The notes under the pieces were generated by a model. The model was given only the letters and a program-made list of their open reading frames with translations, searched no databases and had not been told where the DNA came from. Of a stretch of 64,000 nucleotides of DNA, positions 3,828 to 39,200 are shown piece after piece (the first letter of the stretch is position 1; every line of letters begins with the position of its first letter). The translations under genes were made by a program, and so were the position numbers. The stretch comes from Halomonas chromatireducens. GTDB lineage: Bacteria; Pseudomonadota; Gammaproteobacteria; Pseudomonadales; Halomonadaceae. The stretch is taken from positions 1,520,545-1,584,544 of the forward strand of contig NZ_CP014226.1 in assembly GCF_001545155.1 (NCBI RefSeq), in the 5' to 3' direction.

Positions 3828-3839
3828 TTCGATGCATTG

Positions 3840-18184: not shown

Positions 18185-18229
18185 CGCTCTAGCCAACAAT
18201 CTCAATCTCACTCAGGCAGGGAGGTCTGT

Positions 18230-18780: not shown

Positions 18781-18828
18781 GGGCCCCGCCAAGCATGACG
18801 TATGGTGTGGGGGCTGAGCGGTTAGGGC

Positions 18829-18876: not shown

Positions 18877-18889
18877 GGAACCCACCATC

Positions 18890-19417: not shown

Positions 19418-20145
19418 GCCTGCAAGCCTCGTCTTCGCCGTCCCGCGCCTGGTTGACGGGCATGCGCGAGGCCATTCCGCTGCTCGGCGGCTATGTGCCG
19501 GTGGCCATCTCCTTCGGGCTGATTGCCACCCAGGCTGGCTTCAGTGCCTGGGAAGCCGTGCTCATCTCGACGCTGATCTATGCCGGCGCCTCCCAGTTCC
19601 TGTTCGTCGGCATGGTCGCCGCCGGGGCGCCGCTGTGGCTGGTGGTGGCCATGACCCTGCTGATCAACGTGCGCCACGTGGTCTACGCCCCCAACCTGGC
19701 CCCCTGGCTGACGTCCAGCCGATGGTGGCCCTGGCTGATGCACGGCCTTACCGACCAGGTCTTCGCCGTGGCCCACGCACGCCTGCCCCAGCTGCCGGCC
19801 TCCCAGCGCCTCGGCTGGTTCACCGGCGCCGCCCTGCTGGCCTGGTTGAGCTGGATCGGTGGCACGGCGCTGGGCGCGGTGGCCGGCGGCGAACTTGTCG
19901 CCCGCTGGGCCCTGATGGGTGAGATCCTGCCCTTCGCCCTGCCCGCCCTCTTCCTGGTACTGATAGCGCCCCGCTTCACCTCGCGGCGCTGGAGCCTGGC
20001 CCTGGCCATCACCATCGGCATCGCCCTGCTGCTGACCATGAGCGGACTCACCAACGTGGCGATTCCGCTTGCCGCCGTCTGCGGCGCGCTGTGCTTCTAT
20101 AGCGTGAAGTTCATCACCACAGGGAAAGGAGAACGCAATGAGTAG
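19414..20145 (+). CDS. azlC: Branched-chain amino acid exporter, large subunit AzlC
   Basis: A 243-residue membrane protein with about seven hydrophobic segments. It carries the AzlC features GMREAIPLLGGYVPVAISFG (14-33) and the conserved NVRHVVYAP near 86-94. AzlC with AzlD (like YgaZ and YgaH) exports branched-chain amino acids or methionine through the inner membrane. Its ATG overlaps the stop of the regulator gene, and its end overlaps azlD by eight bases. Confidence 0.92.
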   Translation: MSLQASSSPSRAWLTGMREAIPLLGGYVPVAISFGLIATQAGFSAWEAVLISTLIYAGASQFLFVGMVAAGAPLWLVVAMTLLINVRHVVYAPNLAPWLTSSRWWPWLMHGLTDQVFAVAHARLPQLPASQRLGWFTGAALLAWLSWIGGTALGAVAGGELVARWALMGEILPFALPALFLVLIAPRFTSRRWSLALAITIGIALLLTMSGLTNVAIPLAAVCGALCFYSVKFITTGKGERNE

Positions 20146-22293: not shown

Positions 22294-22477
22294 GTGGGAG
22301 CTGATCTTACCCTGTATTCGTAGACACCGGTCTATGCGACTTTCCTGGCCTCGAGAAGGCCTCGGGACTGATCTTCGCCGTGGCCAAGTGCCTCGGCTAA
22401 CTGGTCTGCTCGTCGCACAACATGTCGACCAACCATGCGGAAGGGGCAGAACGGAAGTTGGCGGATTCTGGACAGAC

Positions 22478-22507
22478 AAACTAAACTAGACCAATTTAGT
22501 TTAGTTT
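22478..22507. promoter_or_regulatory. Inverted-repeat operator upstream of the toxin-antitoxin pair
   Basis: AAACTAAACTA (22478-22488) and TAGTTTAGTTT (22497-22507) are a perfect 11-bp inverted repeat with an eight-base spacer. Each arm itself repeats CTAAA-like pentamers. It lies 20 bp before the antitoxin ATG and probably overlaps the promoter, the usual place for binding of the Phd/VapB antitoxin and its complex. Confidence 0.7.
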
Positions 22508-22527
22508 ATGAGCCTCAGGAGCCAAAC

Positions 22528-22779
22528 ATGGATATCGTGAATATCCACGAAGCCAAGACCCATCTCTCACGTCTGCTGGCTCGCGCCGCCCAGGGAGAAA
22601 CAGTGGTGATCGCCAAGGCAGGCCATCCCATCGCCAAGCTGACGCCCATGGATGCCCCGGCAAGCGGTCAGAGTCAGCGCCTGGGCTTCCTGAAAGGCGC
22701 TTTCGAGATCCCCAAGGACTTCGACACCATGGGAGGCGACACCATCGCCGACGAGTTCGGAGGCGAGCCCACCACATGA
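22528..22779 (+). CDS. Type II antitoxin, Phd/YefM family
   Basis: An 83-residue protein starting MDIVNIHEAKTHLSRLLARA, the N-terminal DNA-binding signature of Phd/YefM antitoxins, followed by GETVVIAKAGHPIAKLTP. The C-terminal part (about 55-83: FEIPKDFDTMGGDTIADEF) is the acidic, flexible toxin-binding tail. Start at 22528, after AGGAG. It overlaps the toxin gene by four bases. As antitoxin it should repress its own operon through the inverted repeat at 22478-22507. Confidence 0.9.
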   Translation: MDIVNIHEAKTHLSRLLARAAQGETVVIAKAGHPIAKLTPMDAPASGQSQRLGFLKGAFEIPKDFDTMGGDTIADEFGGEPTT

Positions 22780-23162
22780 TCCTGCTGTTGGATACCCACC
22801 TGCTGCTGTGGGCGGCCTCACAGCCCGAACAGCTCTCCGAAGCGGCACATGCGCGGCTTCTCGACGAATCCAACGAACTCTGGTTCAGTTCGGCAAGCAT
22901 ATGGGAAGTCACCATCAAGGCCGGCCTCGGCCGAGAGGACTTCAGGGTCGACCCCTATTTGCTACGCCGGGGTCTAGCGGATAACGGCTATATCGAACTA
23001 CCCATTACCAGCGGCCATGCTCTGGCCGTGCACCACCTGCCCCCCATCCACCGCGACCCTTTCGACCGCATGCTGATCGCCCAGGCGGAAAGCGAAGGCA
23101 TCCTGCTGCTCACGGCAGACTCAACAGTGGCACGCTACCCCGGCCCGATCCAGTTGGTTTGA
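22776..23162 (+). CDS. Type II toxin, PIN-domain RNase (VapC family)
   Basis: A 128-residue PIN-domain protein. Acidic catalytic residues are all visible: LLLDTHLLLW (Asp6), SASIWEVTIK (Glu), HRDPFDRMLIAQA (two Asp) and LLTADSTVA (Asp). The PhdYefM-linked VapC subgroup to which it belongs cuts RNA and stops growth when the antitoxin is lost. Translationally coupled to the antitoxin by ATGA. The pair looks intact. Confidence 0.92.
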   Translation: MILLLDTHLLLWAASQPEQLSEAAHARLLDESNELWFSSASIWEVTIKAGLGREDFRVDPYLLRRGLADNGYIELPITSGHALAVHHLPPIHRDPFDRMLIAQAESEGILLLTADSTVARYPGPIQLV

Positions 23163-23787: not shown

Positions 23788-23918
23788 AACCCGCAATTGG
23801 ACGACGGACTAACCTGCAATTGGACGGCGACATAACCTGCAATTGGACGGCGACATAACCTGCAATTGGACGCTGACACAACCCGCAATTGGACGCTACA
23901 ATAACCAGCAACTGGACG
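23788..23918. repeat. Six tandem copies of a 23-bp repeat with core GCAATTGGACG
   Basis: The core GCAATTGGACG starts at 23793, 23816, 23839, 23862, 23885 and at 23908 (last copy GCAACTGGACG): exactly 23 bp each time. The preceding AACC is also kept, and copies two and three are identical over the whole unit. CAATTG in each core is a palindrome. The array stops 17 bp before the ATG of the AAA ATPase gene, covering its promoter or leader. The 23-bp period is a little over two DNA turns, so bound proteins would lie on nearly one face. Confidence 0.9.
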
Positions 23919-23934: not shown

Positions 23935-25233
23935 ATGGCCACGTCTTACCTGCCCCGACTGATTCGTGACCGTGTCGTGGAATCGCTCGCCGATACCCCG
24001 GTGGTCTGCCTGCTGGGTCCCCGGCAAGTCGGCAAGACAACTCTCGCCAAGCGCATCGAGCCCGAGCGGGCCTATTTCACTCTAGATGAACCCACCCTGC
24101 TGGAGGCGGCCCAACAGGACCCGCTCGGTTTCATCGAAGGCTTGCCGGAGCGTGTTACCTTGGACGAGGTCCAGCGGGCCCCGGAGCTGCTGCTGGCTAT
24201 CAAATCCGTGGTGGACCGGGACCGCTCGCCAGGCCGCTTCCTGCTCACCGGTTCCGCCAACCTTCTGCTGCTGCCCAAGGCTCAGGACTCCCTGGCCGGT
24301 CGCATGGAGGTGATCTACCTACACCCTCTGTCCGAACAAGAAAAACGTATCAGCCAGTTCTCCCTACTGGCCAGCCTCCTGGAGGGGAATCTCTCCCCCA
24401 GGATGGTGGCCGACACCACGCCGCTCCCCCCTGCAGCGGAGATCATCTGCCAGGGCGGCTACCCCGAGCCGAACCGTCGCCCTCCCCACCGAGCACGGCA
24501 GTGGTACCGCCAGTACCTCAACGCCATCGTCCAACGTGACGTGAGGGACATCGCCGCCATCCATGACGAGGACGGGATGTTGCGCCTGGTGGAGCTGCTG
24601 GCCTATCGGACCGCCAGCCTGCTCAACGTCAGTACGCTTGGCAAGGAGTTGGGAATGGAGCGCGGCACGGTCGCCAAGTACCTGGGTATCCTGGAGCGGC
24701 TATTCCTGGTACGGCAGCTGCCCGCCTGGCACCGGAACCATGCTAAGCGGCTGATCAAGAGCCCCAAGTTGCACCTCATCGACACTGGCCTGGCCGCAGC
24801 CCTGACCCGATTGGCGACAGATCAGTGGTTGACCCAGGCCGAGCGCTTCGGCGCCCTGCTGGAGAGTCACGTGGTGGAACAACTGATGGCCCAGGCCACC
24901 TGGGTCGACCCCGAACTGCGCTTCTCCCACTACAGAGACAAGGATCAAGTAGAGGTCGACCTGATCATCGAGCGCGGCCAGGAACTCTGGGGCATGGAGG
25001 TCAAGCGTGCCGCGAGCGTGCAAGCCAAGGACGCCGCCGGCCTCGCCCGGCTCGCCGACCAAGCCGGCAAGCACTTCCGGGGAGGCATGCTGATCTATAC
25101 CGGACGCCACTGCCTGAAACTGAAGGTGCCTGGCTGCTACGCCGTGCCCATCGGCATGCTGTGGGGAGAAGAACCCGGCCAGGCGATCTCCAGCGAGGCC
25201 GCATTGCGGGTGCTGACCGGCCAGGAGCCGTGA
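23935..25233 (+). CDS. AAA family ATPase with DUF4143 domain
   Basis: A 432-residue protein. N-terminal AAA_14 domain with Walker A GPRQVGKTTL (28-37) and Walker B-like VTLDEVQRAPELL (about 78-90); C-terminal DUF4143 domain (about 205-370), which ends in a restriction-like fold with FSHYRDKDQVEVDLIIERG and MEVKRA: D-x-D ... E-x-K, the pattern of PD-(D/E)xK nucleases. GGAG lies before the ATG at 23935. The family is widespread in accessory regions and its biological role is unsettled. The 23-bp repeat array directly upstream is probably part of its control. Confidence 0.85.
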   Translation: MATSYLPRLIRDRVVESLADTPVVCLLGPRQVGKTTLAKRIEPERAYFTLDEPTLLEAAQQDPLGFIEGLPERVTLDEVQRAPELLLAIKSVVDRDRSPGRFLLTGSANLLLLPKAQDSLAGRMEVIYLHPLSEQEKRISQFSLLASLLEGNLSPRMVADTTPLPPAAEIICQGGYPEPNRRPPHRARQWYRQYLNAIVQRDVRDIAAIHDEDGMLRLVELLAYRTASLLNVSTLGKELGMERGTVAKYLGILERLFLVRQLPAWHRNHAKRLIKSPKLHLIDTGLAAALTRLATDQWLTQAERFGALLESHVVEQLMAQATWVDPELRFSHYRDKDQVEVDLIIERGQELWGMEVKRAASVQAKDAAGLARLADQAGKHFRGGMLIYTGRHCLKLKVPGCYAVPIGMLWGEEPGQAISSEAALRVLTGQEP

Positions 25234-25348
25234 GTTTGCTCGGAGCAGCGGAAAGAGGAAGACAGGAAAAACATGGTGGGCCCAGCTTCACTCGAAAACA
25301 TGCATTTAACCAACTGGAATTAAAAAACATTCTTCAATTTGTTTATTT

Positions 25349-25372
25349 GACATGCCCCCAGACATGCCCCCA
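25349..25372. repeat. Tandem 12-bp direct repeat GACATGCCCCCA
   Basis: Two perfect, adjacent copies (25349-25360 and 25361-25372). On the minus strand they read TGGGGGCATGTC twice. Repeats of this look often flank tyrosine-recombinase islands as arm-type sites, but no integrase is present here. It lies at the left edge of the A+T-rich island. Confidence 0.5.
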
Positions 25373-25411
25373 TCAACGAGCACCTGCTTGTTGCTACCTT
25401 GGGCTCTCTCT

Positions 25412-25566
25412 GTCACCCACACAATACGGTCTTTCGACAGCACGTGTTCACCGCTCCAGCGGTAGGCGCACAGCTTACCCTTCTCGGAGCCGCGGGAGTG
25501 GCCAATTAACATTGGCTTGTCTACTGGGTAGCCAAACAGGATGTGCTCAGGGACAGGCGCATGAAG
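25412..25566 (-). pseudogene. Decayed C-terminal fragment of a metallophosphoesterase gene
   Basis: The minus strand encodes HAPVPEHILFGYPVDKPMLIGH, continued by KGKLCAYRWSGEHVLSKDRIVWV (shown in pieces: PVPEHILFGYPVDKP, GKLCAYRW, DRIVWV). These match the end of the intact enzyme at 33020-33964 (PIPEHILPGYAGDKP, GKLCAYRW, DNMVWV), but about 27 residues between the two blocks are missing and no N-terminal half remains. The nucleotide sequences have diverged well, so this is an old remnant and not a fresh copy. The rest of 25234-25700 holds no supported gene. Confidence 0.7.
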
Positions 25567-25700
25567 TGCAATATGAAAGCAACAGGTGGCAATACACATT
25601 CGTCAGGTACAGAGAATACTTCTCAACCATCCGAGCAGTTTCACAAACGGTATCTGTCCATCACAGCTGTAGGTAAGGCCAAAAAAGTATTACGTCAGCA

Positions 25701-28700
25701 TTAATATTTATCATCAAAACTAATGAGATACTCCATCCTGTCTGCCTCTATCGCCAAAACAAAAGCAGTGAAAATAAACTCTTCGGATCCAAGACTATGA
25801 GCTGGGTGAAAAGCACGAGCCACGAGGCACCCATCTGGACGGACCAGGAAGCCGACCAGATCCACGTTGCGGTTCCGGAGCAATGTACACCGGAGCAACT
25901 TGTCACGTGAGAGATGTTTGACCGCATCCGAGCCAGCCACCATAGCTTCAAAATAGCAGTATCCAGCCCAATAGCTCACACGGATACGATGCTTTCTACG
26001 CCGATCTTCATCAAATTTAAAAATTAAATCCAATGACTTCACTCGTCGCTTGATGGACAAATCACCGGCCCAGTGAAAATGTTCACTGAGGTAAGCATTC
26101 ACCTGGGTCTCATTGATGGCTGGTAAAAGCTCATTCAGCGGCACTCTTTCTTGCCTGCGCTCTTCAGGGTGTCTGAAACGTCTGAACAGGCCTGCGATGT
26201 CGTCCTCGCAAGTGATATTTGAACCTCCAACAAGCATTTCCGCATCTCGAAACAGTTCGAACCCACCTTTCACGCGGATCGCATAGGTTCGGTATAAGGT
26301 GTCTCGGTATAGCGTGGCGAGACGCTCCAAAATCGATGGCGTGGTAGATTCGGCAAGGTTAATCAACTCGACCGCGTCCACTGCTGTCACCCGCAGCATC
26401 ATCTCACCACTGGAGCGGGCTGCATCCAGGCGTATGTTGAATCGCTGGTGTTCAATCCCGGGGATATTCACCGACACCGGAACCCGACTGTCCAACCTAG
26501 CACCCACTGCGGATTCGATTATTGCCTCGATATGTCGCACGGCCTCAGCACGCTGATTGGTATCTTTCTCTATTCTTTTTACGAGTCGCTGATTCGCCTT
26601 AATTGTGACAGGCCGCGCATAGGGCGATTCCAATAGCTCCAGCAACTGATCTGGAATTTCGTTGCGGTTAGACAGTTCTTTGGAAGTATCTACGAACTCA
26701 TCCATCGACTTTCCGGACCCCGCGATGTCGTGCAGAGACCCCATAAAGACGTTCAAGTTTTCACACAAAGCCCGAACCTGAATTGCTTCGATACTTTGCT
26801 TGACGAATGGAAAAGACACCTGAATGAAGTCATTCTCGCCAACGGCTAGCCCTTGATTTAGACCTAACAGCCTACGATGGGCAAGAGCCCCGACACGATC
26901 CACGCGGCCAGTTTTCTGCTCGATGCTAATTGGCGATGAGGACAGGCCATAATGGATCACGCTGTCGCAAAAAGTGTGTAGATCCTCACCTTCTTGGAAT
27001 ACGTCGGTCGATACCAGCAGCAGCGGATAACCCGGCATTCGGAATTTTCGCGCCTGGACGGAGCGATTAGCGGAGGTTTCTCCGTTCGCGCCAATGATCG
27101 GTGCGCTGGATGGTAGTTGATAGTTTAGCCATAACCGTAGCTCATCCTGAGTTTTGGAATAAACACCGGGCAGGTTGTTCTTGATTACCAAGTTCAGGTT
27201 GTCATTAAGAAGCACCAGCTCTCTGGCAGAGTTGAAGCCGACCTGAAAAAGCTGATCATCTAGCATACGGCATAGCGTGCGCAGCCATTCCTGGCGCCGG
27301 CTTTCATTGAGTTCGGCCTTCCCCAAACGCAAGCGGGCCAAGTATAAATCGATGAATGAATGACCACTGCGAAACGACTGGGCCACAAGCTGACGGTGAA
27401 TCTCGACCCGATGGATATGCTCGTAGAGATCCTTCTTACCCCCCTTTAAGGCTTCGGCCAGGTCACCCGAGGAACTAAAGAAATATCGGGTTTGGTTGTT
27501 TTTTTGCAGATGGGTGAAGAAAGTAGGTGATAAAAGTTTCTGACGAAGCTCACCTATGCCTTCCGGCCGATAACCCCCCGCACGTACCAAGCGCTGGAGA
27601 TAGGCCGATAGTTCGGCAAGGCCGGGCATTTTTGTATATTGTCGGGCCACTTCCTGCAGAAATGCCTGCTGTACGGCGAGGAACTGAGACAAGTCGTCGC
27701 CTTCCGGTACCGCGGCAACCGCAGCCAGTGCCTGATCCACGTGCTGCTCGCCCAGTTGATCGATTAAAGCTACCAAGTTCATGCCGAACAGGGTCTCGGC
27801 CACCCAAGTGGCCCAGTTGAACTCAAACAGCAAAATATTAGCGTTATTCTTTGAGATCAGCGACTTCTTCACCGCCTCAGGTGTCGGCCAGCGGCTGGAC
27901 TGATCGGAAAGCGACTGGCTCAGCTCCTTGGCCATTTCGCCGCGAAAGAACCAGTTGAAGATCGTGTCGTTCTTGGGCGGCAGGCGTTCTTCCTCTTCTC
28001 CATCGGCGGCCGAGGCCTCGCCGCCCGAGATATCTTCATCCCTGCGCTTTCGTGCCTCGTAATAAACTTCCCAGACGCGAGCCATAAAGCGCAACTGATC
28101 GGTCAGACCAGCCAGAGCGTTGGCGATATGCTGCCTCATCCAGGCATCGTACTCATCGTCCAGCTTCTGCTTGAGCTCGGTCACGCTCTTGACCCGGCGA
28201 ACGAAGATCAGCTGCTTGCGGCCTTGGGACAATGCCAGCCCGGCTGCTTGCCGCGAGACTTGGTCCATTTTAGGGTGCGGTAGGGACTGGCCAAAACCTT
28301 CCTCGCCAACGTAACTGTCGCGGATGGCAGCAATCAGGTGGCGATCTCTGGCATCGCTGTGGTTGCCAGGTATTTTTTCCCCGTCGAACTCCACGGGCCC
28401 TGAACGGGTGGTCTGAGCATAGCTCTCGAAAGAGGCCAGCAGCCCCATCTGGAATGAGGGATTGCCACCTTCTTTGTTCAATAGATCGCCGATGTGCTTC
28501 TGGACTAGTGCTGTAATCAACTTATGCTCGTCCGACTCGAAATCGATTTCGGCGCGCTCACCCTTGCGCCATTCCCTTCGATACATGTTCCGTGTATGGC
28601 GCTGCTCATGAATAACTAGCTCATTCAGACGTCTAACCATGAAATGCGCCATTGCATCTTTCAGGTGGGCTGTATCCTGCCAGAGCTCCTCATCGGGCAG

Positions 28701-29522
28701 TAGCTCCGCCTTGCCGACTAGGTTGAGTTGGTTGAAAAGGTGCGTCGGATTTAGATCGAATGGCGTAGCAGAGAGCAGTAGGGCCGCCTTCACTCGCTTG
28801 CGATAGGTCCCGCTCTCCTCCTGATTTGAACCAAGAATACGTGAAAGCACTTGATTTCTCGCACTACTTTCAAATGAGTGCTTCAGGTTGTGTGCCTCGT
28901 CGATGACTACAAGGTCAAAGGTAGGCAGCAGGTAGTTAAGGGCTCTGGCATAAGCCTTCTTGATGCATTCCTTCTTACGGCGCACATGGCCAAGCACTGT
29001 ATCTGGCACATGCTCCCTCAGCTCGTCTAAATGACGCTTCAAACCGTCTTCATCGTCCCCCATGGCTATGCTAAAACTGGACATGCGTACGAAGATATCA
29101 CCGTAGTATCCGGTGGTAGCTGCATGGATCAACTCATCGACATTGGCACAAGAAATCGACGGCGTACCTGCTTCGCCCTGGGGTGTGCGTATTCTGAAGT
29201 TATGTGTCTTGACATTGTTCTTGATGAAATTTGGGTGCTCGCGACCGTACCACTTGTCCTGCACGTTTCGGCTGGGACAGATATAGAGAACACGGTAGCC
29301 CGGATTAAAGTAACGCATCAAGGCGACCACACCAAGGGTAATATAGGTCTTACCCATACCGACCTCATCCGCTAAATAGCCCATCCCCACCTCGGGATGA
29401 ACCAGCATATTTTGCAATGCCACCGCGCCTTCCAACTGGAGCTTTCCCAGTGTTTCGAGCTGGCGATCACCACCACTGAAATCCAGAAGCTTACCGGCAG
29501 TGGTTAGGTCAATCGGCTGCAT
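25701..29522 (-). CDS. Large SF2 helicase, candidate defence-module motor
   Basis: A 1273-residue superfamily 2 helicase/ATPase. Motif I ADEVGMGKT (51-59), Ia-like YICPSRNVQDKW (80-91), motif II DEAH (208-211), III SATPF (251-255), IV-like KQLIFVRRVKSV (436-447), V STDVFQEGEDLH (838-849) and VI QKTGRVDRVG (869-878). About 390 residues, mostly helical, separate motifs IV and V, far more than in a standard SNF2/DEAD second domain. A C-terminal region of about 390 residues has no domain I know. ATG at 29522 with GAGG upstream, overlapping the end of the nuclease gene by 14 bp. Composition is A+T-richer than the flanking core genes, which suggests horizontal transfer. It resembles helicases of restriction-type defence clusters; exact family not identified. 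Confidence 0.85.
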   Translation of the reverse strand: MQPIDLTTAGKLLDFSGGDRQLETLGKLQLEGAVALQNMLVHPEVGMGYLADEVGMGKTYITLGVVALMRYFNPGYRVLYICPSRNVQDKWYGREHPNFIKNNVKTHNFRIRTPQGEAGTPSISCANVDELIHAATTGYYGDIFVRMSSFSIAMGDDEDGLKRHLDELREHVPDTVLGHVRRKKECIKKAYARALNYLLPTFDLVVIDEAHNLKHSFESSARNQVLSRILGSNQEESGTYRKRVKAALLLSATPFDLNPTHLFNQLNLVGKAELLPDEELWQDTAHLKDAMAHFMVRRLNELVIHEQRHTRNMYRREWRKGERAEIDFESDEHKLITALVQKHIGDLLNKEGGNPSFQMGLLASFESYAQTTRSGPVEFDGEKIPGNHSDARDRHLIAAIRDSYVGEEGFGQSLPHPKMDQVSRQAAGLALSQGRKQLIFVRRVKSVTELKQKLDDEYDAWMRQHIANALAGLTDQLRFMARVWEVYYEARKRRDEDISGGEASAADGEEEERLPPKNDTIFNWFFRGEMAKELSQSLSDQSSRWPTPEAVKKSLISKNNANILLFEFNWATWVAETLFGMNLVALIDQLGEQHVDQALAAVAAVPEGDDLSQFLAVQQAFLQEVARQYTKMPGLAELSAYLQRLVRAGGYRPEGIGELRQKLLSPTFFTHLQKNNQTRYFFSSSGDLAEALKGGKKDLYEHIHRVEIHRQLVAQSFRSGHSFIDLYLARLRLGKAELNESRRQEWLRTLCRMLDDQLFQVGFNSARELVLLNDNLNLVIKNNLPGVYSKTQDELRLWLNYQLPSSAPIIGANGETSANRSVQARKFRMPGYPLLLVSTDVFQEGEDLHTFCDSVIHYGLSSSPISIEQKTGRVDRVGALAHRRLLGLNQGLAVGENDFIQVSFPFVKQSIEAIQVRALCENLNVFMGSLHDIAGSGKSMDEFVDTSKELSNRNEIPDQLLELLESPYARPVTIKANQRLVKRIEKDTNQRAEAVRHIEAIIESAVGARLDSRVPVSVNIPGIEHQRFNIRLDAARSSGEMMLRVTAVDAVELINLAESTTPSILERLATLYRDTLYRTYAIRVKGGFELFRDAEMLVGGSNITCEDDIAGLFRRFRHPEERRQERVPLNELLPAINETQVNAYLSEHFHWAGDLSIKRRVKSLDLIFKFDEDRRRKHRIRVSYWAGYCYFEAMVAGSDAVKHLSRDKLLRCTLLRNRNVDLVGFLVRPDGCLVARAFHPAHSLGSEEFIFTAFVLAIEADRMEYLISFDDKY

Positions 29523-31584
29523 AATTATCCTCATTAGTTTCAGGGCGATATTCGCGCAAGAACTGCTCGCGATACCACTCGAAGAAACGACGGCTGCGCT
29601 CAGCATCGTTGCCAATCAGGCTTAATTTGTCGTTATTCTCGATGATCGCCGCTTTCTCTAGGCATTCCTGGAGGTAATGGTCAACCTGGGGCCTGCCCTG
29701 GTATTCTTGGCGCTGGTAAATCTGGACCAGGCAAAGCAGAGCTAGATAGACCGTGACCTGCTCCAGTTCTCGGCCTTCCTCATACAGGCTTTCCAACAGG
29801 GTGGGGAGACTGTCCATGCCGCGCCCGGTGAGATAGTAGTCGACCAGCCCCAGGCGCTCATCTTCCCAGGCCTCGTCCATGCGTCGGCGCAGATTCCTGA
29901 AGGCATGAAACAGCTCGGCGTATTCGGCGAAAAACTGGCGTCCGCTTTCTTCGTGCGGCAGACTTCCTACGCTTTCGGTCAACAAGCCCATCTCGCGAAG
30001 CTGGCGCTGCTTGAGGAACTCAATAACCTGGTTCCGCCGCATCTGGCTTAGACCGGAATAGATCTGCATGATCTCCTGCGGCGACAGGCGTGGTAGGTCC
30101 AGCGGCTTGTGGGTCCAGTTGATTTGCTGAACCATAACCTCGAAGGCGGGCATGGCGATTTCATTGAGCGGCCATTGAACTGCAACGCGAATGAAGCCGC
30201 TATTTTTGAGCAGGGTTTCGATGGTCTCAGGCTTGCATGCGACTGAAACAGTTTCCGTGCTCACCCGGATATCGGCCACCTGAACCGTACCCTCCGGAGA
30301 CAGGATGTCACAGATCAGCTCTTGCTCTGACTGCCGATCATCCAGTGAGGCGGTGAGCAGGCGTTGCTTCCAATCATATCTCAGCAACAGCACGGGTTTA
30401 CTGGCCCCGTCTTCCTGACCCTCTTCGCCCCCCGGTAGCCGGTCTTCCGGGCACCATTTGTCCGGCATCGAACTGATTGGCTTCAAAAAGCTGGTTGGGG
30501 CCGGCAGTTTGGTAAAAAAACCAGCCTCTTGGTTGTCATTGGTAGCGCGGTGTGTGAAGTTCACCGAGCCCACAAATACCCAGGACTGCACACCGTTGTA
30601 AAGGTGGTAGATCTTGGCGTGAGTGCTGCGATTCACAGGGGTTTTTAGACCCAGCTTTTTTTTCACTTCCGGTGACCAGCTAGCCCAGCAGATCCCATCA
30701 ACCTGCTCCAGCCGCTCGTAGTATTCTCGGTTACACAGTGCTTCTCCCTGGTCGTTTTCTGGCAAGAATATGTGTATCTCCTGTACGCCAAGATCGTTCA
30801 AAAAGTGTACGTGACCATCAAAGTCGGGGTTCTCGGCGAAATACGGAGAGATGATTTCCAAGGTCCAGTTATTATAGTAGCGTGACTGTTCGGCCAAGGC
30901 ATTGCGCATAAACATCATGAAAGCAGGCCGATGTTTTTGCGCCAGAGCGAGGCTCGTCAGACCATAGTAGGAGATTGGTCGCGCACCTTTTGAACTTCGG
31001 CAACGCTTTAGAAACCGCTGGATAAGCGGTAGCGCCTTGGCCGGGTCGTCCGGAAGTGCTCTGCTCCGTGCTGATAGCCAGTCGACGTCGGCACGAAGCT
31101 GATTTAAGAAACGTAGATTTGGCCGTCCGCTGACGACACGCTCCCAGTGTTGACACTCAATGTTCTCCCACCAGCCGGCAATACTCAGGTTGGCCGAAGA
31201 TGCGCCCACGCACAGGCTTTGCTCACCACTGTCTACGTTTTCCAGCAGCAGTAGCACCAGCTTTGCGTGAAAGGCTCTACGTTCGCCGCGTATGCCGTGA
31301 TGCAGGTATTCCATCGACGGTGACACCGTACCCTGCTGGCGAAACAGATCAAGATCGTAAAATACTTCCAATGGCAGGCCGGCATCGGACAACGCCTCGC
31401 GTACTTGGATAGACTTGATCCGCTGGTCTGAGGAAAAAGCCAGCCCTTGTTCGAGCATCAGCGGAATGATTTCCTGTTCGAAGAATTCAGGCTCGAAGCG
31501 ATAGGTGGTGAATACAGCCGCAACCACCTGCTCACTCTCCCCGATCTGATCCCGAAAGCCTTCTGAAATGGTGCTCAGCTCCAT
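29509..31584 (-). CDS. Phospholipase D-like protein with two HKD motifs, candidate nuclease
   Basis: A 691-residue protein. First HKD: FHAKLVLLLL (His106, Lys108) with VGASSANLSIAGW (128-138). Second: THAKIYHLYN (His322, Lys324) with VGSVNFTHRA and NQEAGF (338-356). Both motifs look complete, so one active site from two halves, as in PLD-type nucleases, is expected. The region after residue 370 is of unknown fold. Start at 31584, where GGAG precedes at six bases; an in-frame ATG at 31596 has a poorer site. It follows the 411-aa gene by 14 bp and overlaps the helicase gene, so the three are one operon. Most likely the cutting component of the module (inference). Confidence 0.85.
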   Translation of the reverse strand: MELSTISEGFRDQIGESEQVVAAVFTTYRFEPEFFEQEIIPLMLEQGLAFSSDQRIKSIQVREALSDAGLPLEVFYDLDLFRQQGTVSPSMEYLHHGIRGERRAFHAKLVLLLLENVDSGEQSLCVGASSANLSIAGWWENIECQHWERVVSGRPNLRFLNQLRADVDWLSARSRALPDDPAKALPLIQRFLKRCRSSKGARPISYYGLTSLALAQKHRPAFMMFMRNALAEQSRYYNNWTLEIISPYFAENPDFDGHVHFLNDLGVQEIHIFLPENDQGEALCNREYYERLEQVDGICWASWSPEVKKKLGLKTPVNRSTHAKIYHLYNGVQSWVFVGSVNFTHRATNDNQEAGFFTKLPAPTSFLKPISSMPDKWCPEDRLPGGEEGQEDGASKPVLLLRYDWKQRLLTASLDDRQSEQELICDILSPEGTVQVADIRVSTETVSVACKPETIETLLKNSGFIRVAVQWPLNEIAMPAFEVMVQQINWTHKPLDLPRLSPQEIMQIYSGLSQMRRNQVIEFLKQRQLREMGLLTESVGSLPHEESGRQFFAEYAELFHAFRNLRRRMDEAWEDERLGLVDYYLTGRGMDSLPTLLESLYEEGRELEQVTVYLALLCLVQIYQRQEYQGRPQVDHYLQECLEKAAIIENNDKLSLIGNDAERSRRFFEWYREQFLREYRPETNEDNYAAD

Positions 31585-31598
31585 CTTCCTCTCCATCC

Positions 31599-32834
31599 TT
31601 AACGCCGCTCTTGAGCCGCAATGCGCGCGTAGGAGCGCAGGAAGTAGTCGTAATCCCAGTGAGTTTGCAGTTCCTCGATTGGTGGCAAATGAGCAGTCTC
31701 GGCCTTGACACGTACCCTTAATCTGCCACTAGAACTTTCCTCCACCCAGGCGGCCCCACCGCGCCCAGTCATGATCTTCTTGTTCATGTCCAGCAGACAG
31801 CGCAAGGAGGCGAGGGTGTCGCCACTACGCAAGCGGACCCGTAATGCTTCCAGATCCGAGCCATATGGAACCCCAGTCAAGTCCGGGCCCGCTGGCAAGT
31901 GGTCGAAGCGGTAAATGAGATCAATAGCGCTCGCCATTGCTTCCAGTGGCTCATCATCCTGGCGGCGCAAGTAATTGAACAGCGCATTGGCCAGGACCAG
32001 CAGGCGCTCGATCTGGCTAACATTTTCCAAGGCTTGGCGCAGCTCCGGGGATTTGGTTTGCAGGCCAAGCTTGGCGACCAGGGTACCCATCCCAGCCTCT
32101 TTCAGGACGGATAGGTCCAGCGCTCGGCAAGTATCGTACAGCGCCAATTGGCAATGGTGTTTGCCTGACCCGCGCAGCAGAGCTGCTATCAGTGCATCCC
32201 TGACTTTATCGGCACTAATGGCTCGGACGAAGCGCATGTTTTCACGTTCCAGATCAGCGATGGCCACAGCCTTTCGCTGGCCGCGCAGAAAGTCGAAGTA
32301 CCAGTTCATACCTAGACCTTCACCTTGTCGAATCAGGTTATTCTCTATCAGACCGACGATTTCTAAACCTGTCTCGGTCAGCTCGCGCAAATCGCCACGA
32401 ACCAGGCCAGTCTCGCGCAGGGCGGTGGAATACAAACCCCAGATGCCGTAGCTAACCTGATCGCTGAGGATCAGGCTTTTCTGGTCGGTCCCGATACTGA
32501 TGGTCTTTCGATCATCACCCAGGCGCTTACGCACTCGGGTTATACCCATGATCTCGTGGTCATTGGCGCTACTGCGCAAATAGGCCGCTAACTGCTCGTA
32601 GCGAAGAAAATGCTGCTGCAAGACCTTTTGTCTATCGACAGGATTTAAATCACGGCACAGCTGATTTGACCAGTGAAAGCCCAAGAGGCCGACAGCAAAG
32701 ATCTTCCAGGATGAGGTGATAGTGGTTAAATTGCCTACCACACGGCGACCAAAGTGGGTCCACACCATCTCAAAACCCAAGGGGTCACGAGAGCCTTTGG
32801 GACGAGCCCGGTCATCTAAGAGAGATAAAAACAC
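31599..32834 (-). CDS. Unknown 411-aa protein, first gene of the helicase-HKD operon
   Basis: A 411-residue protein with no domain I can name. The N-terminal part (RARPKGSRDPLGFEMVWTHFGR, shown as RARPKGSRDPLGFE and MVWTHFGR, residues 9-30, then VVGNLTTITSS) looks like a conserved block; the remainder is mainly helical, with charged and hydrophobic residues alternating. No membrane segment or signal peptide. The frame opens with GTG at 32834 and a TAG lies four codons upstream, so the start cannot be much earlier; the ribosome site (AGGGG, about 12 bases away) is poor and a later start is possible. It may be the recognition or regulatory subunit of the module (inference from position only). 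Confidence 0.7.
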   Translation of the reverse strand: MFLSLLDDRARPKGSRDPLGFEMVWTHFGRRVVGNLTTITSSWKIFAVGLLGFHWSNQLCRDLNPVDRQKVLQQHFLRYEQLAAYLRSSANDHEIMGITRVRKRLGDDRKTISIGTDQKSLILSDQVSYGIWGLYSTALRETGLVRGDLRELTETGLEIVGLIENNLIRQGEGLGMNWYFDFLRGQRKAVAIADLERENMRFVRAISADKVRDALIAALLRGSGKHHCQLALYDTCRALDLSVLKEAGMGTLVAKLGLQTKSPELRQALENVSQIERLLVLANALFNYLRRQDDEPLEAMASAIDLIYRFDHLPAGPDLTGVPYGSDLEALRVRLRSGDTLASLRCLLDMNKKIMTGRGGAAWVEESSSGRLRVRVKAETAHLPPIEELQTHWDYDYFLRSYARIAAQERR

Positions 32835-32882
32835 TTCTTCAAACGCCCCTATTACCTAGTATCAAGGATATTCATGGGCAGG

Positions 32883-32911
32883 GGCATAATTGATGAATTT
32901 TATCTTATCAA
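32883..32911 (-). promoter_or_regulatory. Candidate promoter of the helicase-HKD operon
   Basis: On the minus strand TTGATA (32911-32906) and TATGCC (32888-32883) are 17 bp apart, 49 bp upstream of the GTG start. The A+T-rich surroundings fit a promoter; the -10 box is weak. Confidence 0.35.
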
Positions 32912-33019
32912 ACTATGCCAGGCTCCCACCATGAGCCATGAATTTGCCTGCTACACCCTATGTATTCCTTGCCACACCGCCGAGTAGACAAGCGCGAAAC
33001 TGGGCTCTTAATGTCAGAT

Positions 33020-33964
33020 TCACTCTCCCTCTACCCAGACCATGTTGTCGGCGGTTAGCTTGCCCTCACCCCGCCAGCGATAAGCACATAATTTCCCCTC
33101 AGCACTTCGCTGGGTACCACTAGCAGCAATGCTGTAGTCGAGGCAGGCAATGTACCGATTTAGTGGTTCCGGCTCACCAGTCATCCAGTAGTGGCCGACG
33201 AACAGCGGCTTGTCACCAGCGTAACCGGGCAAAATGTGCTCGGGTATCGGCGTATGAGGAATTGCTTCGATTTGGTCAGAGGGAACCATGGCAAGATCAC
33301 GATATGTGAGATGCTCCAATTCCCACCAGCGGGTACGGATATGCTGGTGTGGGTTACCGTCCTTGTCGAAGAACTCGTAGCCTGACGGCAATCGTAGCTC
33401 AAGCCCCTTTATCGCTGTTTCCAGTGCATCAGAAGGCTTTTTGCCTTTCTGGCATAGCGTCGGCCAAGCATCCTCAAGAATACGTTGCTGCTGATCCGTG
33501 TAATCGTTCAGGACTCGCAGCGAAGGCGGATGCCAGCAGGCATGGATCACACGTAGCCCTTCGAGATCCAAGTGAAGCGGGAGGGTCTTGAACCAGTCAA
33601 TATGCTGACGGTGGAGCTCGCTCCCCTCACCCACTTGCTCGAGATATGCTTGGTGCTGCCCATAATTCTTGTCGCTGTGGACGCGAAGGTACTGGTCAGG
33701 CTGCTGCGGATCGGGTGTTGCCCAGGCCACGGCATTGAACTCGTGATTGCCCATGACCGCAAGGGCTTGGCCGGCTTCCACCATGGCCTGGGCGATACGC
33801 ACTGTCTCGACCTGTTGGGGCCCACGGTCAATGAAGTCACCGAGGAAGATCACCCGACGCTCAGGGTGCGACCAGAGGCCATCCTTCTTCTGATAGTCCA
33901 GCGCTGCCAACAGGCGCTCAAGGGCATCGGCATGCCCATGAATATCACCGATCAGATCGTACAT
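33020..33964 (-). CDS. Calcineurin-like metallophosphoesterase (ApaH/PrpE-like)
   Basis: A 314-residue cytosolic phosphoesterase with the full metal set: GDIHGH (6-11), GDFIDRGP (about 41-48), GNHE (about 71-74), a His in VIHACWHPP and the final GHYW. The order resembles serine/threonine phosphatases and bis(5'-nucleosyl)-tetraphosphatases. The ATG at 33964 has GGGAGAG upstream; the longer frame lacks a site. It lies next to the candidate defence module, and a decayed relative lies on the module's other side. Substrate unknown: a nucleotide, RNA cap-like end or phosphoprotein are all possible. Confidence 0.85.
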   Translation of the reverse strand: MYDLIGDIHGHADALERLLAALDYQKKDGLWSHPERRVIFLGDFIDRGPQQVETVRIAQAMVEAGQALAVMGNHEFNAVAWATPDPQQPDQYLRVHSDKNYGQHQAYLEQVGEGSELHRQHIDWFKTLPLHLDLEGLRVIHACWHPPSLRVLNDYTDQQQRILEDAWPTLCQKGKKPSDALETAIKGLELRLPSGYEFFDKDGNPHQHIRTRWWELEHLTYRDLAMVPSDQIEAIPHTPIPEHILPGYAGDKPLFVGHYWMTGEPEPLNRYIACLDYSIAASGTQRSAEGKLCAYRWRGEGKLTADNMVWVEGE

Positions 33965-34028
33965 CGACTCTCCCATTAAATCAGTCGAATTTGCTCTACC
34001 CTCGCCTTTTGCCGATACCATAGCAAGC

Positions 34029-34298
34029 TTATAAAGCTTGATTGCCGACCATGGCACATATGGCCTGATCTAGGTCTGTCAATTGAGCCTCGGCGACCAG
34101 TTCGCTTCCGAACCATTCCCGCAGAGCGGCTCGTAGAGCTTCAGAAGGTCCCTCCCCGTCGACCAAGTGAGCCGCCAAGGTAGCGGCCACTCTGGCGTAC
34201 TCTTCAAAAGCCTCATTCTCGATACAACAAGTGCGCATGGGGTCATGCGTGAATAGCATCTGTGAAAGGCAGGGAGCCAGAATTTCTCGCTTTTTCAA
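34029..34298 (-). CDS. Small hypothetical protein, TTG start
   Basis: An 89-residue acidic protein. TTG at 34298 is preceded by GGGAGG at five bases, a strong site that decides the start. Residues 1-25 include CLSQMLFTHDPMRTCC; the rest is helical (EEYARVAATLAAHLV, SEALRAALREWFGSELV). No family recognised. Three Cys residues sit near the N-terminus. It ends 64 bp before the metallophosphoesterase on the same strand and may be co-transcribed with it. Confidence 0.55.
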   Translation of the reverse strand: MKKREILAPCLSQMLFTHDPMRTCCIENEAFEEYARVAATLAAHLVDGEGPSEALRAALREWFGSELVAEAQLTDLDQAICAMVGNQAL

Positions 34299-34447
34299 TA
34301 CTTCCTCCCAAAGATTTGTCGAAATGCTTCTTTCAAGAGCAGGGCGGCTTACGGTCCAGTAGGCAAGAGGTTACCGAGCCAATGCGACACATTGCGTCGC
34401 AAGAAGCCTTATTAGCCTACCGAGAGATTGGAATCGTCCTGCCTACG

Positions 34448-34472
34448 CGATACGACACGAATTGTCGTATCG
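34448..34472. promoter_or_regulatory. 10-bp perfect inverted repeat, likely operator of the WYL regulator
   Basis: CGATACGACA (34448-34457) and TGTCGTATCG (34463-34472) face each other over five bases, 40 bp upstream of the ATG of the metallopeptidase-like gene and 150 bp upstream of the divergent small gene. Autorepressing WYL proteins of defence islands commonly bind one such repeat before the operon they belong to, so the WYL protein encoded at 35218-36237 is the natural candidate (inference). Confidence 0.65.
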
Positions 34473-34512
34473 ACAGATGACCATGACGCAAGTCTCACTA
34501 CGAGGGAACGTC

Positions 34513-35154
34513 ATGAGTCATATCGCAAGCTGTGCTTCAGTAAGCTGGACCTCATCCAATGTGGACGCCGCACAGGTAAGTGCTTGGCAGCAGGATCATC
34601 ATGATTGGTTAGACACCAAGCCAGTCACAGCGGCCCTGGCCGAGTCGCTGCAGGTGGTGGCAATTAATGACGACCGCCTCGCTACGGCCACGACCGACGG
34701 TCGCCGCCTGATGATCAACCCCACCTGGAGCGCCTCCTTGAGCGAGTCGCAGCGGCGCCGAGTCCATGAGCATCTGGTCTGGCATGCGGCTGCTGGTGAT
34801 TATCGACCGCATTACAGTAAGGACACGCACCGCTGGCATCTCGCTTGCGATCACTCGATCAACGCACAGTTACTCCAACTCGGAGGAGACATCCCACTGG
34901 ACACCGTGATGTTTCCTGTTGCGGCCACCTGGCGGCGCGAAGAGGTATATACCTGGCTCGACGGTCACCCACGCCCAGCAGAGGAGCAAAGTCCAGACCA
35001 GCTGATATGGCAGGCAGGGGTTACCTCGTTACACGCTGATCTCACGGAGCTGGACAGCCACTGGCAGCAGCATATCCGTGCTGTCGTGCAGCGCTTCCTC
35101 GGCACACCGTGCTTACCGGATAGAGTCGCTGCATGGCTACTCGGTAACAGATGA
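34513..35154 (+). CDS. DUF2201-like putative metallopeptidase domain protein, active-site Glu replaced
   Basis: A 213-residue protein resembling the N-terminal metallopeptidase-like domain of DUF2201/VWA-linked proteins: LMINPTWSASLSESQRRRV, HLVWHAAAGDY and the later RWHLACDHSINAQLLQLGG with PLDTVMFP. In active relatives the helix reads HExxH; here it is HLVWH, so the Glu is Leu and peptidase activity is doubtful. The VWA partner domain usually found downstream is absent. ATG at 34513 with GAGGGAACG upstream; the frame is open further up but starts with TTG inside the palindrome. First gene after the operator; the WYL regulator follows by 63 bp. Confidence 0.6.
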   Translation: MSHIASCASVSWTSSNVDAAQVSAWQQDHHDWLDTKPVTAALAESLQVVAINDDRLATATTDGRRLMINPTWSASLSESQRRRVHEHLVWHAAAGDYRPHYSKDTHRWHLACDHSINAQLLQLGGDIPLDTVMFPVAATWRREEVYTWLDGHPRPAEEQSPDQLIWQAGVTSLHADLTELDSHWQQHIRAVVQRFLGTPCLPDRVAAWLLGNR

Positions 35155-35217
35155 TTTACATCCACAATTCCCTTAGGCTGCACCTAACCGAGCTCAGCGA
35201 CACAACACGGAACGCCA

Positions 35218-36237
35218 ATGTCCGAGATACGCGATACCCTATTCCGCTACCTGACCATGCTGCAGTTGATTCCTCGCAGCCCAGGTCGGGTCAGCACCCC
35301 GGTACTCCTGGAAAAGCTCAGCGAGCGAGGGTTCAACATCGACGCGCGCTCTCTCCAACGTGACCTGCGCGACAAGTTGGCACTGCATTTTCCCCTCGGC
35401 TGCGACGATAGCCAGAAGCCCTACCGCTGGTATTTTGACCGCAACTTTAACTGCAACCTGCCAGCCCTCGATGTTCCAGGTGCACTTACCCTTGTATTGG
35501 CAGAAGAGTATCTCAAGGGCCTGCTTCCATCGGTGGTAATCGGCCAGCTCTCCCCACAGTTTCGTGATGCGCGTCAATTACTCGACGACCTGGAGCAGAA
35601 TGGGCTGAGCCGCTGGGCACGCAAGGTACGGGCCATTCCCAACGGTAAGGCGCTGGTTCCTGCCCCGCTGCGCGAGGCGACCTGGCAGACAGTCTCGGAC
35701 GCGCTTCTGGCGCAGCGCGCCATCGATGTCACCTATCTCTCACGCAGCGCGGAAGAAGAAAAGCACTTCACCCTCCACCCGCAGGGCCTGGTCAGCCGCC
35801 ACAGCGTGACCTACCTGCTCGCCACGGTGAACGACTACGACGATATTCGGCAGTTCGCCATGCATCGCATCGAGCAGGTCAGTCTCAGTGATGCGGCCTG
35901 GCGGCCGTGCCATGATTTCGACTTGGACACTTACATTGCAAGAGGCGCTTTCGGCTATCTGCAGAGCAAGGCTCCCATCAAGCTGGTTGCCCATATTGCC
36001 CCTCAGGTGGCCTGGCTGCTCAGCGAAACACCGCTCTCCGAGGTGCAGCAACTGACACCCCTTCCCGGCAGCAGCTGGCACTGCCTGGAAGCGGAGGTTC
36101 CCGACGATCAACAAACCCAGTGGTGGCTGATGGGTATGGGCGCCAACGTGGAGGTGCTTGAGCCAGTCACTTGGCGAACCGAGATCTACGCTGCTGCCAA
36201 GTCCATTGTCGAGCGTGGAGAGACGTTAAATGAATGA
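35218..36237 (+). CDS. WYL domain-containing transcriptional regulator
   Basis: A 339-residue regulator. The N-terminal winged helix (about 1-75: LFRYLTMLQLIPRSPGRVST, then LQRDLRDKL) binds DNA; the WYL domain (about 140-215) shows the R-A-I-D-V-T-Y core, HPQGLVSRHSVTYLLA and FAMHRIEQVSLSD; a WCX-like C-terminal part follows to 339. WYL regulators of this layout (BrxR/CapW type) control defence clusters and sense nucleotides or DNA damage products. It overlaps recC by eight bases, so recC and recB may be transcribed with it. The likely operator is the repeat at 34448-34472. Confidence 0.85.
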   Translation: MSEIRDTLFRYLTMLQLIPRSPGRVSTPVLLEKLSERGFNIDARSLQRDLRDKLALHFPLGCDDSQKPYRWYFDRNFNCNLPALDVPGALTLVLAEEYLKGLLPSVVIGQLSPQFRDARQLLDDLEQNGLSRWARKVRAIPNGKALVPAPLREATWQTVSDALLAQRAIDVTYLSRSAEEEKHFTLHPQGLVSRHSVTYLLATVNDYDDIRQFAMHRIEQVSLSDAAWRPCHDFDLDTYIARGAFGYLQSKAPIKLVAHIAPQVAWLLSETPLSEVQQLTPLPGSSWHCLEAEVPDDQQTQWWLMGMGANVEVLEPVTWRTEIYAAAKSIVERGETLNE

Positions 36238-39200
36238 GAAAAGCCCGTCCACCACACAAGGGCTTATCGTGCTGCAGGGCAACCGCATGGAGGACCTTCG
36301 CGACCTCACCCTGCAGTTGCTCGGTCGCCGGCCGCTCCACCCGCTGGCGCGCACCCTCTTCCTGGTCCAGAGCAACGGCATCGCTCAGTGGCTGAAGACC
36401 TCTATCGCCGAGCGTCAGGGAGAGCCGGGGTATGGCATCTGCCTAGGAACTGAGGTTGCCCTTCCCGCTAGGTTTCAGTGGCAGGCCTATCGCAGCGTGA
36501 TCGAGGCGGTGGAAGGGCCCGGCCAGGTGCCCACCACCTCCCCCTTCGACAAGACCCGCCTTCGCTGGCGCCTGATGGCGCTGCTGCCGGATGTACTCGA
36601 CGACCCACTCTTTGCGCCCCTGGCACGCTACCTGCGCGATGACGACGAGAAGCGCAAGCACTACCAGCTGGCGGAGCGTCTGGCCGACCTCTTCGACCAG
36701 TACCAGGTCTACCGCGCCGACTGGCTCAACGCCTGGGAGGTGGGCGAGGATGTGCTGACGCTGCCGGGCAATCGGACGATACCGGTACCCGACGAGCAGC
36801 GCTGGCAGCCCGCCCTGTGGCGCATGATCAGCGCTGAGCTCACCGACGAGCAGGCCCATAGCCACCGCGGCGCGGTCCACCGCCGCTTCATGGCCGCCGC
36901 CGAGCAGCTCGGCGAGCGCCCGGCTGACCTTCCTCCACGCATCGTGATCTTCGGCATCACCTCCCTGCCCCAGCAGACCCTGGAGGTGCTGGCGACGCTC
37001 TCCGGCGTCTGCGAGGTGGTGCTGTGCCTGCTCACCCCCTGCCAGTTCTACTGGGGCGAGATCATCGAGACTCAGGAGGTGCTGCGCCGCTACGTGCGCC
37101 AGCAGCGCCGCCAGGGCATGCCCGCCGAGCTTCACCACTCCCCCGAGCAGCTCCATTTGCATGCCCACCCGCTGCTAGCCGCCTGGGGCAAGCAAGGGCG
37201 CGATTACCTGCAGCTGCTCAGCGAGCACGACCAGACCGACGTGGCCGCCATGAACGCGCTGCTCGACCGGTCCGTAGACCTCTTTCTGCCGCCGCCCAGC
37301 GACACCCTGCTCGGCCAGCTTCAGGACGATATTCTCAACCTGCGCTCGCTGCATGAAACCCAGGGCACCTGGCCGGCACTGGATCCGGCGCAAGACGCCT
37401 CGATTCGGTTTCACCTCTGCCATAGCCCCCAACGTGAGCTGGAGGTACTCCACGACCAGCTGCTGGCCGCCTTTGCCGAGGACGCCACCCTGGAGCCCCG
37501 GGACATCATGGTCATGGTGCCCGACATCAACGACTACGCCCCCTATATCGATGCGGTATTCGGGCAGTTCGCCCCCGGCGAGCGGCGCCACCTCCCCTAC
37601 CACGTGGCCGACCAGCAGCAGCGCCACCGGGAGCCCATGCTGGTCGCGCTGGAGACCCTGCTGTCGCTGCCGAAGATGCGCTTTCGCGCCAGCGAGATCC
37701 TCGACCTGCTGGACATCCCCCCGCTGCGTGAGCGCTTCGGCCTTGCCGAGAGCGATCTGCCCACGCTGCAGCGCTGGATTCGCGAGGCCAACGTGCGCTG
37801 GGGCCTGGACGCCGCGCAGCGCAGCGAGCTCGGCCTGCCGGAGCATGACGAGCTGCATACCTGGCGCTTCGGGCTGGAGCGCATGCTGCTGGGCTATGCG
37901 GTGGGCGAGGCCAGCGAAGAGGGCGACGACTGGGGCGACATCGTGCCCTATGACGAAGTCGCCGGCCTGGACGCGGCGCTGGTTGGCCCGCTCTACCGGT
38001 TGATCCTGACCCTTGGCGAGTGGCGCCACCGCCTAAATGAGCCGAAAACCGCCATGGAGTGGGAGTCGACTCTCTCGGCCATGCTGGCGGAGACGCTGAC
38101 GCCCACCACCAGCGCCGAGCAGGCGCTGCTGGGACGGATTCAAATGGCCCTGGAGGCGTGGCTGGAAGAAATCGCCGACGCCGAAGTGGCGGTCAGCCTG
38201 CCGCTGGCCGTGGTGCGGGAAAGCTGGCTCGGCCGCATCGACGAGCCGCAGCTCTCCCAGAGTTTTTTGATGGGGCGGATCACCTTTGCCACCCTGATGC
38301 CGATGCGCGCCATTCCCTTCCGCCATGTGGTCCTGCTGGGGATGAGCGATGGCGCCTATCCGCGCCGCGCTGAGACCCTGGATTTCGACCTGATGGCCAT
38401 GCGCGGCCACTATCGCGCCGGCGACCGCTCACGCCGCGACGACGACCGCTATCTGTTCCTGGAGGCGCTGCTCTCGGCCCGGGAGCGACTGATCATCAGT
38501 TGGTGCGGCAAGAGCCCCCAGGACAACAGCGAACAGCCTCCCAGCGTGCTGGTCGGCCAGCTACGCGACCACCTGGGCAAGGGCTGGCGCCTGCTCGATC
38601 AGCCACCCCACGCCGAACGCACCCCCGGCGACCACGACAAGATGGCCCAGGCGCTGCTCGCGGCAATGACCGCAGAGCATCCGCTGCAGCCCTTTGGTGC
38701 CGCCTACTTCCAGGCCACCTCGCCGCTGTTCACCTACGCGGATGAGTGGCAGGGGCTGCATGGTAGCGACCGGGCGAGCCTAGACGCACCCGACGAGCAG
38801 GTGGCGCTTCCCCGTTGGCACCCCGAAGGCCCCATTTCGCTGTCCAACCTGACCGGGCTACTGGCCGACCCAGTCAGCGCGCTGTTCCAGCAGCGGCTCT
38901 CCACCTCGATGCGCGATGACGACACCCTCACCGAGGACGACGAGCCATTTTCCTTTGCCGGGCTGAGCAAGTGGCAGCGACGCGAGGCGCTGGTGAAGCC
39001 GCTGGGCCAGCGCCTGGCCCACTCGCCGACGCTCGACCTCACCGAGGCATTCAGCCAGGAGGTAGAGCGCCAGCAGCGCGCCGGCCACTACCCTCCGGCA
39101 CCGGTCGGGCCCATCATCCGCGAGATGCTGCTGGAGCGACTGCCCGATGCCCTGATGGCCTACCGGGAGCTGCTGGAGCGCTACCCCTTCCCCCTCAGAG

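Follow-up and report, generated by a model that had tools for sequence, protein, structure and literature searches.

What is the role of a compact three-gene operon in the genome of Halomonas chromatireducens, and does it constitute a defence system of its own? The operon occupies positions 25,701 to 32,834 of a 64,000-nucleotide stretch of contig NZ_CP014226.1 (hereafter the window, i.e. that whole stretch at its full length) and encodes, in this order, a 411-residue protein (A), a phospholipase D (PLD)-like protein with two half sites (B) and a large superfamily 2 (SF2) motor protein (C). An earlier note on this DNA had taken the three genes for a candidate defence system, compact and of its own. 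Our analyses, based on sequence comparison, indicate that the trio is a divergent sister branch of the catalogued PADLOC candidate PDC-M27 and no wholly new system, and that it is probably an anti-invader operon.

The three open reading frames (ORFs) follow one another on the minus strand in the order A-B-C, with gene A at 31599..32834 (411 residues, GTG start), gene B at 29509..31584 (691 residues from the ATG at 31584, which is Met5 of the longest frame, 29509-31596) and gene C at 25701..29522 (1273 residues from the ATG at 29522, which is Met32 of the longest frame, 25701-29615, with a TTG start); they encode distant relatives of PDC-M27A, PDC-M27B and PDC-M27C, respectively. The starts of B and C were chosen by homologue support, and with them the tight coupling described earlier holds in all its details, A and B being separated by 14 bp and B and C overlapping by 14 bp. 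The A+T-richer composition was likewise confirmed, the trio having a G+C content of 53.4% against about 63% in its flanks (62.6% in 1-25000 and 63.2% in 36230-64000) and a G+C content at third codon positions (GC3) of 0.59-0.64 against 0.85 in recC. The foreign DNA probably extends beyond the trio, because the metallophosphatase, DUF2201_N and WYL genes next to it have GC3 values (0.61-0.71) close to those of the trio and far from that of recC. A promoter scan of 25200-36300 returned 3 promoter-like sites (5.3 in shuffled sequences), none of them immediately upstream of A, and a terminator scan of the same interval returned 14 terminator-like sites (8.5 in shuffled sequences, standard deviation 2.4), those listed with coordinates being all intragenic.

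Screening against the PADLOC models assigned all three proteins to the same candidate, A matching PDC-M27A (56 bits, E 7e-16), B matching PDC-M27B (55 bits, E 1.5e-15) and C matching PDC-M27C (233 bits, E 2e-69), so that the claim of a system of its own could not be upheld; this profile check, which the earlier note had proposed, bore out its separation of the trio from DISARM, Dpd and Mokosh, but did return a catalogued candidate. The organisation of the locus as three adjacent genes on one strand agrees with that of PDC-M27, and the gene order A-B-C is the same as in PDC-M27-like trios. As references of the latter kind we scanned the trios of a Rhodoferax plasmid (L025) and of a genome of the window's family (L026), plus protein A of locus L033, which scored 544-605 bits (three A), 717-805 bits (two B) and 1287-1918 bits (two C). 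The weakness of the window's matches relative to these scores is what points to a divergent branch. Identity between the window proteins and those of PDC-M27-like trios is 17-24%, window A is shorter than theirs by about 50-60 residues, and window C carries long inserts relative to those of L025 and of a Vibrio plasmid (L024). Profile-profile comparison nonetheless established homology between the two branches for A (395 columns, probability 98.5%, E 2e-15) and for B, through its N-terminal part (338 columns, 98.4%, E 8e-15). A faecal contig labelled as phage (L023) resembles the window in its scores against PDC-M27 (A 32, B 34 and C 275 bits).

Both trees and identities recovered, for all three proteins and with full support, a main split between the window, L021, L022 and L023 on one side and L024, L025, L026 and L033 on the other, the branching within each side differing among the A, B and C trees with mostly weak support. 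Besides the window, its branch is represented in a Halomonas, in a metagenome bin and in a faecal contig. Its existence implies that the trio is older and more widespread than the strong matches to PDC-M27 suggest, provides two very different versions of the trio for comparison and pins down the invariant residues of subunit A. A preprint on guilt by embedding (Payne et al. 2024) is reportedly the source of the PDC candidates, and we take PDC-M27 to be one of them by its name. Another source calls such candidates unvalidated, in passages that do not name PDC-M27 (PMC12988326). Our literature searches found no paper on PDC-M27, and neither a study of the trio nor an experiment on PDC-M27.

The trio is a real, rare and co-inherited unit. 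We examined eight loci holding a long match to C (the window, L021, L022, L023, L024, L025, L026 and L033), and in 8/8 of them A, B and C are adjacent in the same order and orientation, which answers in the affirmative the question raised earlier of whether the three genes are conserved together; the recurrence of this order in distant bacteria is more than chance. Pairwise identities of A, B and C co-vary (r = 0.97-0.99, 28 pairs among the 8 loci), values which are owed largely to the split into two clades. In L021 the overlap of B and C is likewise 14 bp, and C is split into two frames.

The distribution of the unit is patchy. In genome counts that include the window's own genome, A was found in 2/90 genomes of the genus (the coordinates of the second match fitting the L022 contig) and in 1/369 of the class, B also in 1/369 of the class, and C in 3/398 of the phylum, one of them a partial match; within the family, C had matches in 33/201 genomes, of which only two (G000 and G065) were long, the others being short helicase matches. 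Among 72,556 plasmid records searched with the L025 proteins, A and B each matched the same 3 records and C found all 3 too. The Vibrio plasmid was typed as conjugative and that of Rhodoferax as mobilizable, and a second Vibrio plasmid gave nearly the same match as L024. The phage collection yielded one real match (faecal contig MT835507), a second one covering only 6% of C. In the viral collection, the matches listed for the C query included two short ones to helicases (L031 and L032), and a single relic of the trio, L084, emerged from the scans with C (among the matches listed), with A, with B and with two single C proteins. This IMG/VR contig, found through B, holds at 1463-4239 a remnant formed by A and a shortened B; Mu-like transposition genes and a gene resembling an integrase lie next to it (both named by eye).

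Regarding the individual proteins, C has Pfam matches to Helicase_C and ResIII and a sub-threshold match to SNF2, and its closest solved sequences are RapA and ISWI. It carries the Walker A, DEAH, SATP (motif III), motif V and QxxGRxDR motifs of an SF2/SNF2 protein; their key residues, with motif III as ATP, are invariant in 6/6 aligned C proteins (an alignment made without L021 and L033), in agreement with the intact helicase motifs described before. These features suggest that C is a double-stranded DNA translocase, given what is known of the family of SNF2/RapA-type motors. Its long C-terminal region is also present in the C protein of L026 (1230 residues), so that the two branches are not told apart by length alone.

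Protein B contains a PLD-like domain (Pfam PLDc_2, residues 246-364) and the two HxK...SxN half sites of the PLD superfamily, formed by H110/K112/S134/N136/E147 and H326/K328/S344/N346/E357, all invariant in 8/8 aligned B proteins. The two HKD motifs noted previously are thus present as half sites (H326 and K328 correspond to the former His322 and Lys324, numbered from Met5), but neither half of window B has the Asp that the textbook motif HxKxxxxD contains. The conserved acid is instead a downstream Glu (Glu147 and Glu357, both invariant); the active residues of BfiI/Nuc-type PLD nucleases are H, K, N and E. The sole match of B among solved sequences at E 0.1 was a restriction endonuclease (2c1l, E 9e-4), which we take to be BfiI, a PLD-type enzyme.

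Protein A is the most family-specific subunit of the trio, for which neither Pfam nor NCBIfam gave a match at E 0.01, and scans of the three proteins with domain libraries recognised no reader domain for modified or methylated bases in A, B or C. The best match of A among PDB sequences, a ribosomal protein (E 0.003), was taken as chance.

The site of the trio appears, from gene content, to be a variable defence hotspot with a DUF2201_N-WYL backbone, at which some relatives carry other defence cargo. The backbone is represented in the window by a DUF2201_N protein (34462..35154, plus strand) and a WYL/WCX regulator (35218..36237, plus strand). The WYL gene was found in 54/201 genomes of the family at E 1e-20, and 20 related regions (from 19 genomes) were picked by WYL among the stronger matches. 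DUF2201_N adjoins WYL in 17 of these 20 regions and none of them (0/20) holds A or B, for which reason WYL and DUF2201_N were rejected as parts of the system. In a scan of 10 larger proteins from 6 of the 20 regions against PADLOC models at E 1e-15, region L066 held LeoA, LeoB and a Type I methylase, L064 a Druantia DruE-like protein, and both L064 and L065 UvrD/GajB-like helicases, the latter being a generic helicase match.

The neighbourhoods of the other trios bear on the question, posed earlier, of whether the genes lie next to other defence genes: 8/10 neighbouring proteins scanned matched a model at 1e-3. In L023 these were two IetA-like proteins and relatives of ZorB (75 bits) and, weakly, of ZorA (30 bits); L022 contributed an HKD+Snf2 fusion and a NERD helicase, and L024 a reverse transcriptase (DRT UG17) with SLATT. 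A WYL gene lies near 6/8 trios (the window, L022, L023, L025, L026 and, from another subfamily, L033); none was seen in the gene table of L024, and L021 has little flank. Inspection of gene tables and ORFs brought no methylase to notice beside the trios, not every flanking ORF having been scanned.

Several features of these neighbourhoods deserve mention in their own right. In the window, the 3' end of WYL overlaps the start of recC by 8 bp (35218-36300), and this hotspot regulator may be co-transcribed with recC; such adjacency occurs in 1/20 WYL regions (L065). An intact calcineurin-like metallophosphatase gene, a hotspot accessory, lies upstream of A (33020..34057, minus strand), and a relic of the 3' end of such a gene, with an internal deletion, lies downstream of C on the opposite side of the trio (25306..25599, minus strand). 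A target-site duplication was rejected as the origin of the two copies, their identities (40% over 75 protein columns, 71% over 68 bp of DNA) fitting an old paralogous relic. Further away are a tandem array (23788-23918, 5.7 copies of a 23-bp unit) directly upstream of the gene for an AAA_14/DUF4143 ATPase (23935-25233), and Phd/YefM antitoxin and PIN-domain toxin genes with a 4-bp overlap (22435-23162). After the trio of L023 (13083-18240) follow an IetA-like AAA gene, a 414-residue gene with no PADLOC or Pfam match, and the weakly ZorA-like and the ZorB-like gene, possibly a Zorya-related arrangement. In L022, two genes at 15829-20043, presumably ADP-ribosylglycohydrolase-like and DUF4236-like, have relatives (E 9e-22 and 7e-8) near the trio of L033 (15313-19139), which belongs to the other branch.

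Taken together, the best explanation is in our view that the operon was acquired horizontally and serves in defence, as a diverged sister of PDC-M27 carried as hotspot cargo, in which C would translocate, B would cut and A would recognise or license; as a whole we hold it to be about evenly poised between right and wrong. The defence-operon part is supported by the matches to PDC-M27, the 8/8 collinearity, the shared plasmid records, the co-varying identities and the invariant catalytic residues, as well as by the low G+C and GC3, the patchy distribution, the defence neighbours and the cargo of the hotspot. The roles of motor and nuclease rest on the closest solved sequences, RapA and ISWI for C and a PLD-type restriction endonuclease for B, and on the precedent of SauUSI. 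The operon, its intact motifs, the conserved trio, the co-varying identities and the hotspot setting are read from the sequence. In the mechanism that we infer, for every biochemical step and all specificity, C would hydrolyse ATP and move along double-stranded DNA as a SNF2/RapA-type motor rather than a true unwinder, the two half sites of B would fold into a single PLD active site cutting DNA, and A would recognise the invader or license B and C.

Besides the contribution of the clade split to the correlations, a number of observations weigh against this explanation. The matches of window A and B to PDC-M27 are weak and their best stretches partial, and for the B protein of L023 ZacB gives the higher score (43.9 bits, against 34.2 bits with PDC-M27B). 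The window's own B, used as a query, had no match among the plasmid records, a Komagataeibacter plasmid holds a C fragment with neither A nor B in the record (L025 queries), and the C match in genome G771 is partial. The predicted model of A is poor (from an alignment of 4; mean predicted local distance difference test, pLDDT, 51.9) and found no match among PDB folds at E 0.001 or better, the serum-albumin ranks of that search being meaningless, and the model of B is unusable (mean pLDDT 36.4). Finally, 4/10 of the hotspot proteins had no PADLOC match at 1e-15, one of them being an SrfB protein.

Other explanations have to be considered. Possible but doubtful is that the window branch is more than a diverged PDC-M27, namely a distinct, three-chain and methylase-free DNA-shredding machine in which A would be a new kind of recognition subunit, distinguishing the DNA of an invader from that of the host not by a methylation mark but by another feature (hypermodified bases, topology, replication forks or DNA ends). 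An abortive-infection defence, in which A would sense the invader and release B on host DNA, RNA or membrane, with C as a sensor or switch of DNA structure, seems unlikely, though worth keeping in view: PLD-type proteins need not be specific for DNA, self-protection by marking is not evident, the inspected gene tables and ORFs having brought no methylase to notice, and WYL genes, which regulate defence systems as repressors, accompany six of the eight trios. However, C has complete translocase motifs, the sole solved sequence relative of B is a DNA restriction enzyme, and the WYL gene of the window belongs to the hotspot backbone and not to the trio.

The presence of trios on conjugative and mobilizable plasmids, together with the L084 relic beside integrase-like and Mu-like genes, would fit a system for competition against plasmids or between mobile elements, phages being only incidental targets; yet several copies lie outside plasmid records, beside genes matching anti-phage systems, and we consider this decidedly unlikely. 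A DNA repair or recombination accessory linked to recBCD is highly improbable. Although recC starts at the end of WYL, 3.4 kb from the trio, and a SNF2/RapA-like motor with a nuclease could process DNA ends, the rarity of the recC-WYL adjacency (1/20 regions) led us to reject a partnership with recBCD as the principal explanation, and the trio is absent from nearly all sampled relatives and foreign in composition. Decay would account for the metallophosphatase relic adjoining C, the two frames of C in L021 and the shortened B of L084, but a non-functional cargo kept only through recent acquisition is barely credible for a full-length copy with intact catalytic positions, residues which have remained invariant despite an overall identity of about 20% between the branches.

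A defence operon of the PDC-M27 kind shares parts with several known systems. The earlier note had remarked on the missing partner genes of DISARM, Dpd and Mokosh, and indeed none was found in the proteins scanned. With DISARM the trio has in common a PLD protein (DrmC) and an SF2 helicase (DrmD/DrmA), but C reaches 55 bits with DrmD and B 17 bits with DrmC, far below the NCBIfam cut-offs, and no DrmA, DUF1998 protein DrmB or methyltransferase occurs among the window proteins scanned. DISARM is defined by the DrmA helicase, DrmB and a DNA methyltransferase, with DrmC, and the latter is dispensable (PMC9142583), for which reason B need not be essential either. The score with DpdE, 55 bits against a cut-off of 500, places the trio outside Dpd, and no deazaguanine gene was present among the 8 window proteins scanned. 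Mokosh consists of an MkoA/MkoB pair or a fused MkoC; no Mko model matched A or B, nor was there one among the best 25 of 30 families for C. As for Zac, window B scores 38 bits with ZacB and window C 94 bits with ZacC, in both cases less than with PDC-M27, whereas the B protein of L023 has its best score with ZacB. None of the Zac models was matched by A, and our literature searches found no paper on Zac.

The coupling of an HKD nuclease to an SF2/SNF2 helicase is found in PbeA and in the HKD-Swi2/Snf2 helicases related to Type-2 BREX (PMC10853773, PMC12839542), and the same coupling characterises the PADLOC entries HKD+Snf2 and PLD_Helicase. In PbeA and the Type-2 BREX-related proteins, however, it takes the form of a fused chain with ABC ATPase/DndE or DUF499/methylase partners, whereas the trio has separate genes plus A, and no such partner was found among the 8 window proteins scanned, which sets it apart from PbeABCD and the Type-2 BREX-related systems. 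With SauUSI and BfiI, B has in common the PLD nuclease site, the nuclease of SauUSI being of the PLD/HKD kind. In SauUSI, recognition of a target switches on the helicase-like ATPase that powers translocation, and the DNA between sites is then shredded by the nuclease domains (PMC7913695). Whereas SauUSI does this in a single chain, the trio has three, and could represent a split version of such ATP-dependent PLD endonucleases, in which each of the functions of recognition, motor and nuclease has its own chain and a self-marking methylase is lacking. Should the trio prove functional, it would offer a compact solution to the problem of restraining a PLD nuclease and a DNA motor without such a methylase.

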